DNA of 37,112 nt from a virus. Where the stretch lies: IMG/VR virus record IMGVR_UViG_3300034158_000064, positions 1 to 37,112 of that record. One strand, given 5' to 3'. The number at the start of each line of letters is the position of its first letter. Positions within the stretch are counted from its first letter, which is position 1. Below are positions 3,029 through 37,112 of the stretch, piece after piece. The translations under genes and the position numbers were made by a program. Below the pieces are notes generated by a model. It worked only from the letters and a program-made list of their open reading frames with translations. It was not told the origin of the DNA and searched no databases.

Positions 3029-3676
3029 GTGGCGCTAAAAATTGGCTTTGCAACTCAAAAAGGTGGACCCGGCAAATCCACCGACGCACGCGGAACCGCC
3101 GTTGGGTTCGCGCAAAATGGCTGGGCAGTAAAAATTGCCGACTTCGACTTAAACCAATCGACTAGCACGCGCTGGCTCCAGCGCCGTCTAACGCGCGGAC
3201 ACAAGCCAGAAGTATCTGTAGAGCAGTTCGGATCAATGGCGCACGCCTTGGCTCGGGCCGATGATTACGACGTGATTATTTTCGATGGCGCGCCGCGCGC
3301 CAGTAAGGACACTGCAGCAATGGCCGAAGCGTGCGACCTGCTGGTTATTCCGACCGGCCTATCAGTCGACGACCTCGACCCAGCCGTCGAACTGGCGGAC
3401 GCACTCCACTTCAAGCACGGAATACCTATAGAGCGTATTGCCTTTGCCCTCAACCACGTAGGCGATAGCATGGCCGAACTTGAGGAGGCTCAAGAATATT
3501 TGAGCCAGAAGCCCTACCACGTCCTCGCCGGCCACCTCCCGCAGAAGGTCAGCTACAGCCGTGCCATGGATATTGGTCTGTCAGTGATTGAAGTTTCTCA
3601 TAAGGGGCTACGGGCCCAGGCCGAACAACTAATAAGCTCAATCATCAAGCGCGCGACTGCGCTACAATCAAAATAA
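3029..3676 (+). CDS. parA: ParA-family partition ATPase, 215 aa, GTG start
   Basis: Segregates the plasmid form of the genome. It carries the deviant Walker A motif QKGGPGKST (residues 10-18, signature Lys 11), Walker A' with Asp at FDLNQ (about 38-43) and Walker B IIFDGAP (about 83-89). At 215 aa, with no N-terminal helix-turn-helix, it is a small ParA of the ParF/type Ib class, which usually pairs with a ribbon-helix-helix protein, as here. The GTG start has AAGGA 9 bases upstream. The stop codon lies inside octad array C. Alternative: a MinD/Soj-like ATPase, less likely given the partner gene and repeats. Confidence 0.93.
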   Translation: MALKIGFATQKGGPGKSTDARGTAVGFAQNGWAVKIADFDLNQSTSTRWLQRRLTRGHKPEVSVEQFGSMAHALARADDYDVIIFDGAPRASKDTAAMAEACDLLVIPTGLSVDDLDPAVELADALHFKHGIPIERIAFALNHVGDSMAELEEAQEYLSQKPYHVLAGHLPQKVSYSRAMDIGLSVIEVSHKGLRAQAEQLISSIIKRATALQSK

Positions 3677-9439: not shown

Positions 9440-10321
9440 TTACAGGTGGGGGTGTCGACTATTGAAAAGCTTGATCCGCTTAGTGGCCGGCAAAGCCTGA
9501 TTGTCCGGGTCGGCCATGAAGGCCGTCCAAGCAGCCGCACGGGCGCGAGCTTTATCCTCGGCCTTGCGTGCCTCGGCTTCCGCCTCTTGCTGTCGCTGCT
9601 TGCGCTGGGCGTTGTCGTGTGACTGTTTGCGCACCTGGCGCTCGCCCGCTTCCTTGACCAAAGAAGCTACGCGCCGCTTGCCCAAGTTCATCAGTAGCTG
9701 GTCACGCTTGCTCTTCTTCTGCGTGCGCGCCTCGGCCAGCTGATAACCCAGCCCCAGGTCAATAAAGAATCGCGGGCGGACATTGATCGTTACCCGGGTA
9801 ATCCAATACTTCCCGTTGTGGTAAATCCTGCGCATTTTGCGCTTGATGTACTTCGCGTCTTCCAAAGATTTCAGCAGGCGCGAAACGGTCCACTCCTGCA
9901 GGCTGGTGTCTTCGGCCAGGCCTCGTTGGCGGTTTAGGTGGAAGTCACCTGTTTTCTTGTCGATATACCCCAGGACCAGCGTGGCAATGTCCAGGCGGGC
10001 AAGAATCGGTTCAATGATTTCCGCCAAAGAGTCCCACCGGGTCTGATTGGTCCGGTAGCCGCTGGTCTGGTAACAGTCGAAGGGGCGCAGCCATTTGCAT
10101 GTGCGCCCCTGGGCCTCTGCCTTGACTCGCTCGGCGGCGATGCCCAGGAACGTCGCGCGCTGGCTTTCGGTCAGGGCACGCGGCCGGCGCTTCTGTTGTG
10201 AGCGGTCGACGCGCTTTAAACGCTTGGGCGGGGCTTTGGTCTGGACAGCAGAAAGGCCGTTGTAGACGGCAGACTCAGGGGAGCCGGGGAGATAGTGGAC
10301 GGTTGCCGTAACGCGCTTCAT
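9440..10321 (-). CDS. repA: Plasmid replication initiator, IncFII RepA-like, 293 aa
   Basis: Starts replication of the plasmid form. The Arg-rich RSQQKRRPRALTESQRATFL region, the central winged-helix-like section (SLQEWTVSRLLKSLEDAKYIKRKMRRIYHNGKYWITRVTINVRPRFF) and the long basic Ala/Gln-rich C-terminal helix follow the pattern of IncFII/IncB-type RepA proteins, and the length is typical. The ATG at 10321 is chosen because it overlaps the stop of a leader peptide; an in-frame TTG upstream would swallow that leader. Antisense RNA and leader upstream fit the same class. Family assigned by pattern and context. Confidence 0.78.
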   Translation of the reverse strand: MKRVTATVHYLPGSPESAVYNGLSAVQTKAPPKRLKRVDRSQQKRRPRALTESQRATFLGIAAERVKAEAQGRTCKWLRPFDCYQTSGYRTNQTRWDSLAEIIEPILARLDIATLVLGYIDKKTGDFHLNRQRGLAEDTSLQEWTVSRLLKSLEDAKYIKRKMRRIYHNGKYWITRVTINVRPRFFIDLGLGYQLAEARTQKKSKRDQLLMNLGKRRVASLVKEAGERQVRKQSHDNAQRKQRQQEAEAEARKAEDKARARAAAWTAFMADPDNQALPATKRIKLFNSRHPHL

Positions 10322-10431
10322 AGCGAGCCACCGACAGCCAGGGCCTCGCGTGAAACGCAGGCCAGGGGCTGAAAATCTATTCGCCCCCGCATAAGCTCGG
10401 GGCGGCCTTCTACTGAGGCTTCGCCAATCAT
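10318..10431 (-). CDS. RepA leader peptide, 37 aa, translationally coupled
   Basis: A good ribosome site (AGGGAAG, 6 bases before ATG) precedes this short frame (MIGEASVEGRPELMRG...). Its TGA overlaps the ATG of repA in ATGA. The repA start itself has only a weak ribosome site, so RepA synthesis likely depends on ribosomes finishing the leader, as with RepY/RepZ of IncI and Tap/RepA of IncFII plasmids. The peptide sequence itself probably does not matter. Confidence 0.72.
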   Translation of the reverse strand: MIGEASVEGRPELMRGRIDFQPLACVSREALAVGGSL

Positions 10432-10456
10432 CCAAAACTTCCCTAATAGCTAGGGC

Positions 10457-10485
10457 TTGCTTATGCGGTGATCAGCTAATAGACT
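10457..10485 (+). promoter_or_regulatory. Predicted promoter of the repA antisense RNA
   Basis: TTGCTT (10457-10462), a 17-bp spacer and TAGACT (10480-10485) on the plus strand, opposite to repA. Transcription should start near 10491 and end at the hairpin and T-run around 10565. Confidence 0.5.
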
Positions 10486-10490
10486 TCTAC

Positions 10491-10565
10491 CTGCCCGGCG
10501 AGAAGCCTATTTTGTGCTGATCTCCAGAAACCCCCGTCCCGCCAAGGTCGGGGGTTTTCTTTTTT
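10491..10565 (+). ncRNA. Candidate antisense copy-control RNA (RNAI/CopA-like), about 75 nt
   Basis: The 3' end is a strong hairpin: stem AAACCCCCG / CGGGGGTTT (10528-10536, 10549-10557) and a 12-base loop with CGCCAA, followed by TTTTCTTTTTT. The repA mRNA carries the complement UUGGCG in its own loop. This is the hexanucleotide that starts antisense pairing and pseudoknot formation in IncB/I/L/M plasmids. UUGGCG occurs again in the mRNA at 10427-10422, over codons 2-3 of the leader peptide. Size and position suit an RNAI-type regulator of RepA level and copy number. The 5' end is approximate. Confidence 0.62.
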
Positions 10566-10670
10566 AAGCCTGCCTAAAAATTTCTAATTCTTCGTAACTG
10601 CTGTGCCCCTGGGGGCTGACGGCGCTCAGAATAACGCGCCCACTTCGGGTCGTCCACAATTAGTGTAAAT

Positions 10671-10853
10671 TTACACAACTCTCAAAGAAACAATAGCCTG
10701 CCGCAACGTCTCCAGTTGCAGCGCTTCCCCGGGGTGCGCTGTGTCGTCGTTGGCTTTCTGGATGCACAACAACTCCACGAAGTGGTTAATCGCGTCGATA
10801 GTAGACGCTTGGTCACTTTTGATCAAAGGGTTTGCAGAGGGTGTATTCGACAT
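10671..10853 (-). CDS. Small SOS-controlled protein, 60 aa, candidate antirepressor
   Basis: AGGAAGGAA lies 6 bases before ATG. A near-consensus LexA box stands 66 bp upstream (10919-10938), and there is no other gene in that gap. The product is soluble, with an acidic/amphipathic helix (STIDAINHFVELLCIQKAND) and a C-terminal helix (EALQLETLRQAIVSL). Small LexA-controlled antirepressors induce several prophages whose repressor is not cleaved, and the repressor here seems uncleavable. The antirepressor role is inferred from this regulation only. Its stop codon lies in GTGTAAATTTACAC. Confidence 0.68.
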   Translation of the reverse strand: MSNTPSANPLIKSDQASTIDAINHFVELLCIQKANDDTAHPGEALQLETLRQAIVSLRVV

Positions 10854-10897
10854 AGGGGTTCCTTCCTAACAGCAGTCATTCAAATTCAATGGCGACA

Positions 10898-10911
10898 ATT
10901 CTATCTAGAAT
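10898..10911. promoter_or_regulatory. Inverted repeat between LexA box and the SOS gene
   Basis: ATTCTA-TC-TAGAAT lies between the LexA box and the start of the 60-aa gene. It may be a second operator for this gene; the binding protein is unknown. Confidence 0.4.
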
Positions 10912-34791: not shown

Positions 34792-36069
34792 CTAGGCCGC
34801 GCCGCTGCTGGTGTCTAAGGGTGTCGCTGTTGCGGTCTGTCTCGGTGTCGTCTCGGCGGCAAAAAAAGAGAGCCCCTGCGCCTCAAGCCACAGATGCCAC
34901 CGCTCCAGCGCTTGGCGCTTAAGGGTTTCGGCGTGGGTATGGATGTACGCGGCCTGCAGGTCGTCCATGGCGTGGTTAAGCAGCATTTCGCCTATGAAGT
35001 ACTCAACGCCCAGGTCTAACCACATGCTTCGTGCGATCTTTCTCAGGTCGTGACTGGACCACTCACCAGCCGTCAAGGACGCGATCATTTCTTGGGATTG
35101 GTTGTCGGTTATCGGGTCGCCATCACCACGCGGGAACAGATAGGCGCCGGTATATCCGGTTTGTTTCTGGCGGGTACGGTAGGCCTTGAGCAATGCGACG
35201 GTGTGCCGGGTCAACGGTAGACGGTGGTCGTTGTCGGTCTTGGTGTCGGCCGCTGGCAAGAACCATTCGCCCTCCCCTTCAAGGGTCAGGTTTTGCCATT
35301 TTGCCAAGCGGGTTTCGCCTATCCGGGTGCCATGGCAAAGGATCATCAGCGGCAGCATGCAGATGGCCGTTAAGCGTACCTCGCCTGCAGACAAGCGCTT
35401 AACCAGCTCGGGCAACTGGTGCGGTCGAAGGGCGCAAGGCTTTGGACGAATAGGCGTATCAATGAAGTCAGAAAACACCACCTCGGCCAGTGGGTTTTGG
35501 CTCAGCATGTCGAGGCCCGCCGCTTGCTTAAAGGCCTTTTTCAGTAGGCCGAACGCTTGGCGGGTATAGGCAAGGCTGCGCACTTCCTGCATAGGCCAGA
35601 TAAGACGGTCGTCCAGCGCTTGACGGTCGACCATCTGCAGACTGAGCGAGCCCACACGCGGCAGCAGTTGGCAGGCCACCGCCGAACGCACGGTTCCTTT
35701 CCACTTCACTGACAGCTTTCGGGTGCGCTCGATACGGTCGGTATACCAGCGCAATAAATCCTCGACACGCTCCCAGGACGACACAGAGACCAGGGCCTTA
35801 GGGTCGGCCGTCAGCTCGGCCAGCTTCTTGGGCAACAGCTCCAGAGCGGTTTTCGCGGAAAGGTCGGGCCAGTTGCCTAGCTTCCGCGACGGACTCTTGC
35901 CGTCGATATGGCGGACCACATGCCAGGAACCACGGGACCGGTCTTTACCAAATCGAAAGTGCAGAGCCGGGTATCGGTGGTCGCGCACGTTATGCGTAAC
36001 GGATTGCTCGGCCAGGCGCCTCAACTCAGCGTCGGTGAACTTGATATGAAGGGTTTTTTTGTCGGTCAT
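34792..36069 (-). CDS. int: Tyrosine recombinase (phage integrase family), 425 aa
   Basis: The catalytic set is complete: Arg249 (HGTRIGE), Lys277 (DTKTDNDHRLPL), His340-x-x-Arg343 (SSHDLRK), His366 (LLNHAMDD), Tyr375 (AAYIH). The N-terminus (residues 1-95) is the arm-binding/DUF4102-like type (FRFGKDRSRGSWHVVRHIDGKSPSRKLGNWP), followed by the SAM-like core-binding domain. An integrase in a phage that replicates as a plasmid may serve multimer resolution or alternative integration. The start MTDKKTLHIKF is chosen by homology; upstream sequence is not protein-like. A palindrome copy at 35988-36001 lies near the 5' end. Confidence 0.93.
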   Translation of the reverse strand: MTDKKTLHIKFTDAELRRLAEQSVTHNVRDHRYPALHFRFGKDRSRGSWHVVRHIDGKSPSRKLGNWPDLSAKTALELLPKKLAELTADPKALVSVSSWERVEDLLRWYTDRIERTRKLSVKWKGTVRSAVACQLLPRVGSLSLQMVDRQALDDRLIWPMQEVRSLAYTRQAFGLLKKAFKQAAGLDMLSQNPLAEVVFSDFIDTPIRPKPCALRPHQLPELVKRLSAGEVRLTAICMLPLMILCHGTRIGETRLAKWQNLTLEGEGEWFLPAADTKTDNDHRLPLTRHTVALLKAYRTRQKQTGYTGAYLFPRGDGDPITDNQSQEMIASLTAGEWSSHDLRKIARSMWLDLGVEYFIGEMLLNHAMDDLQAAYIHTHAETLKRQALERWHLWLEAQGLSFFAAETTPRQTATATPLDTSSGAA

Positions 36070-36205
36070 GTCTGGCAACCAATCAAGGCGGCCAGGCACT
36101 GATAAGAGCGCTAGGCCGCGTTTTGGGCGTAGCCATCCCCTACCCACACGAAAGGTGGAAACATTACTGCTGCAGGGATGGAGATAGGTGGCATACGGGT
36201 TTCTG
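36070..36205. other. Gap upstream of the recombinase gene: possible attP/int control region
   Basis: No gene is seen in these 136 bases. They hold an inverted repeat (GCGGCC...GGCCGC) and the ten bases CTAGGCCGCG (about 36110-36119) that recur at the 3' end of the recombinase gene (34792-34801). Nearness to int makes it a candidate attachment site. No direct evidence. Confidence 0.3.
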
Positions 36206-36469
36206 TTAAGCCCTGGCCGGCACTGCCAGCGACGGCAATGGGCGCTCAAACTCACTGATCAGCGCTTCTATACGGCTCATCAGTTGGTAATGTTCGGCGG
36301 TCTTTTCAGGGGATGGCCCGGGGGATTTGTGGTGGTCAGCAAGGGCCAAGACGAATTTCTGCAGGCTGGCCGTGTGACTGACCAGGCGTCGTATGGCCTG
36401 GCACTCCGTACAGTGCGGCTGCTCATGCAGCAAGTGCGCCTCAAGACGGTCTATTTCATCGCTTCGCAT
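36206..36469 (-). CDS. Hypothetical protein, 87 aa
   Basis: The start MRSDEIDRLEAHLLHEQP overlaps the end of the Q-like gene. The product has HEQPHCTECQAIRRLVSHTASLQKFVLALADHH, a small His/Cys cluster (possible metal site), and a helical C-terminus (SRIEALISEFERPL). Function unknown. It is followed by a 136-bp gap before the recombinase that holds an inverted repeat (GCGGCC...GGCCGC, about 36092-36117) and could be the attachment site region. Confidence 0.65.
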   Translation of the reverse strand: MRSDEIDRLEAHLLHEQPHCTECQAIRRLVSHTASLQKFVLALADHHKSPGPSPEKTAEHYQLMSRIEALISEFERPLPSLAVPARA

Positions 36470-36884: not shown

Positions 36885-37112
36885 CAGTGAGCCTCGGCGA
36901 TGCTCAGCAGATGCTCTTTCAGCGCATCAATAGCGTCGAGAAAGTGACGGCACCCGCCCTGCATATGGGTGACTTTAGGGTCGTTGCGCTCCATGGGGAC
37001 CGACTCAGAAGGCGCGCCCATGACGTGCCAGATAACCCCGCCACGGCGGCGAATTTCCTGGGCCTCATCCGGGGTCATTACGTTGTAAATCACCAGCCCG
37101 CCAAGCGCTTTG
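36884..37112 (-). CDS. dNMP-kinase-like protein, C-terminal part (gene crosses the circle join)
   Basis: This is the end of the gene that starts at 312 near the left end. An internal Met at 37093 makes it look like a separate 69-aa gene, but joining the ends gives one 137-aa frame. This part holds EAQEIRRRGGVIWHVMGAPSESV and a C-terminal helix (FLDAIDALKEHLLSIAEA). The first 127 bases of this stretch (36986-37112) duplicate bases 1-127. Confidence 0.6.
   Translation of the reverse strand, partial: KALGGLVIYNVMTPDEAQEIRRRGGVIWHVMGAPSESVPMERNDPKVTHMQGGCRHFLDAIDALKEHLLSIAEAH
36986..37112. repeat. Terminal direct repeat, right copy
   Basis: Identical to bases 1-127 and to be removed once when closing the circle. 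Confidence 0.93.

Follow-up and report, generated by a model that had tools for sequence, protein, structure and literature searches.

A REx-C-like replication control module with a putative antisense-triggered start-codon switch in a tailed phage-plasmid

Replication control regions of the REx-C type were described for Pseudomonas plasmids in 2017, with no example outside Pseudomonas (PMC5304414). RepA-Pa is one of the four Rep families found behind REx-C modules, and the gene on plasmid pPsv48C encodes RepJ, an initiator newly described in the same paper. The REx-C/REx-R RepJ replicons (pPsv48C, pA506) share with the locus reported here a RepJ-family initiator, a coupled leader gene, a putative antisense-terminator stem-loop with flanking A runs, further stem-loops, a putative antisense promoter downstream, and exchange of the module with RepA-Pa, with or without the leader (PMC5304414). 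They differ in that our locus and its relatives reside on tailed phages, are far diverged in sequence, and occur outside Pseudomonas too; a start-codon switch is not described in that paper.

IncI-alpha plasmid ColIb-P9 (repY/repZ with Inc RNA), IncB plasmids, and IncL/M plasmids (RNA I) likewise combine a 5'-UUGGCG target loop, a short antisense RNA, and a leader whose translation rep needs, with an unrelated Rep. The hallmark of the IncI/L/M type is a pseudoknot partner lying next to the rep ribosome site. The UUGGCG motif is named in the title of Asano, Niimi, and Yokoyama (1998). IncFII plasmid R1 (CopA/CopT with the Tap leader) also has an unrelated Rep and a coupled leader, against whose translation the antisense RNA is directed (Blomberg 1992, as cited in PMC5304414). 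Extrachromosomal prophages of mycobacteriophages are plasmids as well, replicating by RNA control or RepA (PMC7157519), although the accessible part of that account describes an initiator RNA or an actinobacterial RepA and no leader/antisense module of the present kind.

Here, we analyze a stretch of viral DNA of 37,112 nucleotides (IMG/VR record IMGVR_UViG_3300034158_000064; hereafter, the window). Its first and last 127 bases are identical direct terminal repeats (1-127 and 36986-37112), and the record therefore covers a whole genome of 36,985 bp that is circular (or terminally redundant). Genes for terminase, portal, protease, capsid, sheath, Mu-like baseplate, tail fibre, and endolysin are accompanied by a CI-like repressor, a ParA-like ATPase, and a tyrosine recombinase. 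The terminase, portal, capsid, sheath, and baseplate genes and the repeats bear out the first-pass annotation, which had called this a phage genome; this tailed phage has plasmid functions and appears to persist as a plasmid. The ParA/MipZ-like ATPase (3029-3676, plus strand) is likely its partition gene. In this genome with a plasmid replicon of its own, the tyrosine recombinase (34792-36255, minus strand) may act either as a resolvase of dimers or as a genuine integrase. Tails differ among phages with the same replicon type: late-control-D/VgrG-type tail genes are found in the Aeromonas and P. aeruginosa elements L002, L003, and L006, against the Mu-like baseplate of the window. L006 is pACil-blaVCC-1, a related phage-plasmid of Aeromonas caviae with, going by its name, a carbapenemase gene; in L004 (CP124676), a related phage-plasmid of P. 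aeruginosa, a mercury operon adjoins rep.

The rep gene (9440..10321, minus strand; 293 amino acids) encodes a RepJ-like replication initiator of predicted winged-helix type, identified by tblastn and alignment. The hits comprised P. aeruginosa phage-plasmids (plasmids with phage tail genes; 50%, E 1e-60) and P. syringae-group plasmids (34%, E about 1e-20), among them the RepJ locus of pPsv48C (34%, E 3e-20, 70% of the protein covered; 31% in global alignment). Since this pPsv48C relative is RepJ, the window Rep is, as judged from these alignments, a diverged and distant RepJ of Pseudomonas rather than a Rep of the IncFII/I/L/M type. At curated score, neither Pfam nor NCBIfam gave a family match, and helix-turn-helix and replication-initiator profiles matched weakly; an IncFII-type RepA profile was absent from the Pfam search even at E 5, and NCBIfam gave none. 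DNA and protein searches of an annotated phage collection returned no match. Structures were predicted at pLDDT 62 for Rep and 49 for a RepA-Pa-type protein, and Foldseek with the predicted structure (best E 0.016, mostly winged-helix proteins) supports a description no more specific than winged-helix-like. The likely rep ribosome site, GGTGG (10328..10332, minus strand), is predicted to be mostly paired in free mRNA. Upstream, minus-strand TATTCT (10628-10633) may be the -10 element of the promoter for the rep message, and several relatives have a similar sequence. A perfect 14-bp palindrome also lies upstream of the rep message (10663-10676, minus strand, GTGTAAATTTACAC); ACACAAAAAGTGTAAA occupies a comparable position in Aeromonas relatives, which suggests a regulator operator.

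On the plus strand, positions 10531-10554 fold as CCCCCG-u-CC-CGCCAA-GG-u-CGGGGG, followed by TTTTCTTTTTT (hairpin and T run, 10531-10565); the terminator-type hairpin with loop CGCCAA that had been placed opposite the rep leader is thus present. It would end a predicted antisense RNA of about 70 to 75 nt (10492..10566, plus strand, from promoter and terminator positions), the transcription and binding of which we infer. The candidate promoter, TTGCTT-17-TAGACT (10457..10485, plus strand), is read directly from the sequence and has a conserved architecture and spacing; a generic promoter scan found no site at its cut-off, this promoter falling below threshold, so the case for it is one of conservation. 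The mRNA strand forms SL1 (10527..10558, minus strand), the target hairpin, with loop UUGGCG at 10540-10545; a loop of this type facing a complementary antisense terminator hairpin is also a trait of IncI/IncB/IncL/M systems. Next to it is SL2 (10466..10526, minus strand), its 5' arm within the antisense target and its 3' arm (10467-10476, GCUGAUCACC, with segment GCUGAUCA in the same arm) proposed as the switch strand. Rfam covariance models, those of antisense families included, gave nothing at gathering score; the best sub-threshold match was to the rnk leader (E 0.03), and its end falls on the terminator hairpin.

The leader peptide ORF (10318..10431, minus strand; 37 codons) runs from ATG 10431 to TGA 10318 and overlaps the rep ATG (10321) in ATGA. 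Its Shine-Dalgarno sequence, AGGGA, lies 8 nt upstream of the ATG and is part of a ribosome-site hairpin, CCCTA...TAGGG (10440..10455, minus strand), with an Aeromonas counterpart of CCTTTGC/GCAAAGG. The leader with its ribosome site and the ATGA common to leader and rep, as previously claimed, are thereby confirmed. Among RepJ-type elements, leaders have 25 to 45 codons, and wherever the leader is complete its stop overlaps the rep start as NTGA (ATGA, GTGA, or TTGA); in RepA-Pa-type elements, Rep is itself the first ORF and a separate leader is lacking. Amino acids vary at 18 leader codons, compared with 8 codons with silent changes only, as expected if translation rather than the product matters.

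Relatives were sought with a pattern combining the SL1 loop and the antisense promoter, which matched 18 viral contigs (most of 34-43 kb) and four 36-40 kb contigs from Pseudomonas and Aeromonas genome assemblies. Two further matches, in a cyanobacterium (L039) and a member of the Bacillota (L043), were chance-like, with no rep-like ORF behind either. The alignment of 22 modules (20 distinct) comprised three lineages: A (the window), B (P. aeruginosa type), and C (Aeromonas type). Loop UUGGCG, the antisense -35 element TAAGCAAGCC, and the 17-nt spacing were invariant across all 22, while stems changed with compensation. The antisense promoter was kept as TTGC..-17-TANACT in all three lineages; every parsed module had spacer 17 and -10 TANACT, and as the parser demanded a -10-like hexamer at 16-18, only the exact value of 17 is informative. 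In SL1, SL2, and the closing helix, 91.8% of cells were paired (22.7-49.9% when slid by 1-3 columns), and six pairs had changed on both sides; the covariation score was reached by 0 of 500 shuffles. A covariance model built from the aligned modules located about 45 additional loci in which the module immediately precedes rep (E to 1e-22 and below). Across about 60 related modules, SL1 and SL2 are conserved through compensatory changes. Dozens of related loci share the hairpin, its stem altered with compensation, and the leader/rep overlap, which puts both far beyond chance, and an antisense RNA with a translationally coupled leader peptide is well supported as a reading of these alignments. 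SL1 loops vary in distant modules upstream of rep (L046, L064, L066, and L112; e.g., CCGGCAAG) with the architecture kept, and these are possibly distinct incompatibility groups. An 18-kb P. aeruginosa plasmid with a RepJ-like gene (L008) has an upstream TTGGCG in a hairpin of quite different make-up.

Modules and Reps are exchanged among relatives. Module identity was 88% between the window and L033 and 85% between L003 and L042, compared with about 73-78% across these pairs. The Reps of the window and L003 are both RepJ-type (48% identity); those of L033, L042, and the Aeromonas elements belong to another family (34-43% among themselves) with no similarity to RepJ, which includes plasmid pP27494_2 (44% identity), the type of RepA-Pa. 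Each of two module lineages is found with each of two Reps, making four combinations, and therefore module and rep recombine. RepJ and the unrelated RepA-Pa thus sit behind closely similar modules, in line with the several non-homologous Reps of REx-C, and an antisense-terminator stem-loop flanked by A runs, further stem-loops, and rep start signals are present as in REx-C. Matches of the module model to REx-C regions were obtained on pP27494_2 (E 0.0003) and on P. syringae pB26-2 (E 0.004), in each of which the loop is UUGGCG; pPsv48C, alike in architecture, was matched weakly (E 0.06, 15 bits). Because of this Rep-family exchange and these matches, the control region is placed as REx-C type, putatively a divergent REx-C module on a RepJ-type rep. 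The IncB/I/L/M or IncFII layout proposed in the first-pass annotation is not supported, given the RepJ-like Rep, a closest module that is Pseudomonas REx-C, and the lack of a pseudoknot partner beside the rep ribosome site.

We consider it probable that this phage-plasmid replication control unit works through an antisense-triggered switch at the leader start codon. The rep message would start upstream of SL1. With antisense RNA scarce, SL2 would form, leaving the leader start codon free; the leader would be translated, and a ribosome ending at the overlapping ATGA would start Rep by coupling. At many copies, the antisense RNA (10492 to about 10566, plus strand) would bind SL1 via CGCCAA/UUGGCG and then cover the SL2 5' arm, and the freed 3' arm (GCUGAUCACC) would pair with the leader start (GGAUGAUYGGC), hiding the start codon so that no Rep is made. 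Hairpins, antisense promoter, leader overlap, co-varying complementarity, and module exchange are supported by sequence comparison; switch, coupling, and copy-number effect we infer from them.

The complementarity comes from folding the mRNA without its antisense-covered part, in which the SL2 3' arm pairs with GGAUGAUYGGC; the start-codon segment involved (10423..10433, minus strand, GGATGATTGGC) is complementary to that arm. Corresponding pairings are GUUUAGC with GCUAAAC in L003, GUUUAGCC with GGCUAAAU in L042, CUGGCCAUC with GAUGGACAG in L002 (one mismatch), and GUCGGUCA with UGACCGAC in L057. With one module per family (n = 14), own arm/start pairs were more stable than permuted pairs (-13.9 versus -10.9 kcal/mol, p 1e-4), as with a longer start window (-18.0 versus -13.9, p 5e-5), compared with p 0.40 for a control window further downstream; a larger set of 23 modules agreed (p 5e-5). 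Part of the shared ancestry among modules remains in this permutation test, and per-sequence shuffles of the start region were significant in only 6 of 23 modules. The switch is favored because the complementarity is specific to each module's own arm across the 14 families. In the thermodynamic model of the window, the start codon was paired with the SL2 arm 0.00 of the time in free mRNA and 0.43 when antisense bound; the model gave a clean switch in some modules, the unpaired fraction of the AUG falling from 0.93 to 0.55 in the window and from 0.47 to 0.03 in L042. Several module-A leaders showed no clean switch in the free-energy model, the AUG being poorly accessible in the free state too, and three Aeromonas-type leaders had a poorly accessible AUG in both states. 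Modelled Shine-Dalgarno accessibility of the leader changed little and unevenly with antisense RNA. Complementarity of the SL2 arm tail to the rep ribosome site (p 0.011, 7 families) is a lead.

Plain CopA/CopT-type control, in which a long antisense duplex sterically blocks leader initiation with no specific alternative helix, fits the architecture of antisense RNA, leader, and overlap, and all other steps would be identical. The predicted duplex, however, ends about 50 nt upstream of the leader Shine-Dalgarno sequence, and the co-varying SL2-arm/start complementarity would be left unexplained; we regard it as unlikely. The proposed OFF state differs from that of R1 in being an alternative helix over the start codon.

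Slightly less likely still is pseudoknot-dependent control as in IncI/IncB/IncL/M, in which leader translation exposes CGCC to pair with GGCG of the SL1 loop and activate rep, and antisense RNA blocks this. The loop is exactly UUGGCG, and all 16 of 16 aligned RepJ-type leaders retain a possible partner, CGCC (10401..10404, minus strand), as CG[CU]C, but a predicted local hairpin with GGCG 10422-10425 also accounts for its conservation and is the better explanation. Rather than adjoining the rep ribosome site, CGCC sits about 70 nt upstream, where the leader ribosome would cover it early, and REx-C chimeras function with foreign leaders, the authors' evidence against a pseudoknot (PMC5304414). 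No partner of the IncI/L/M type was found near 10328-10332, the only CGCC in the leader being that at 10404, and the mRNA strand of the leader holds no CGCCAA, as had been noted from the sequence; the suspicion of a variant mechanism was right.

Antisense-induced transcription termination upstream of rep (pT181/pIP501 type) could draw on the alternative helices in the leader, but the rep strand at 10280-10900 has no terminator-like hairpin with a T run, making it very improbable. TTGGCG occurs on the mRNA strand at 10545 and again at 10427-10422, over leader codons 2-4; with 33 copies on the minus strand in 37 kb, the second alone is not beyond chance. Present as the first-pass annotation had said, this exact hexamer repeat fails as a second antisense target, the least probable of the readings, in that it is retained in only 6 of 16 close relatives, counting the window, whereas 10 of 16 have UCGGCG through a synonymous change of the Ile codon, and nothing comparable is present in other module lineages. 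It is better explained as part of the putative alternative helix with SL2, because the start segment holds most of it and U or C at the Ile wobble position pairs with G of the SL2 arm, which makes the change neutral for the proposed start-codon switch.

Some leaders may derive from displaced rep genes. In L099, whose rep is RepJ-type, the leader shares 90% identity with L056 repA-Pa over the initial 90 nt of both, dropping to chance level soon after, and the L099 peptide is the only leader with a significant match to the RepA-Pa N-terminal profile (E 3e-6); on this DNA-level evidence, the L099 leader is a stub of repA-Pa. In the window leader, MIGEASVEGRPELMRGRI has 7 of 17 identities to RepA-Pa N termini in fixed register (p 0.003), with no significant profile match for the leader (E 4.8); this leader is likely a repA-Pa relic, a weaker case than L099, resting on the fixed-register test. 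Capture of a new rep behind the module would leave the first 20-35 codons of the old one as the "leader peptide."

The picture is of a conserved REx-C/RepJ replicon in a phage-plasmid, as far as sequence can tell, together with the proposed start-codon switch and evidence that a leader gene can be the remnant of a displaced rep. With the module in phage contigs, Aeromonas, Edwardsiella, Delftia, and Halomonas, the REx-C range widens from Pseudomonas plasmids to many phages and to plasmids of these four genera. The chances are about even that a portable antisense start-codon switch, in which a displaced hairpin arm occludes the next ORF, is common to many phage-plasmids of Pseudomonas, Aeromonas, and other Proteobacteria, with some leaders being relics of displaced reps. 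The model offers a specific, testable OFF state for antisense control, as well as a source from which a leader peptide gene arose, at the DNA level in one locus (L099). From two aligned RNA segments, incompatibility and copy control would become predictable in a group of phage-plasmids, a number of them with resistance genes.
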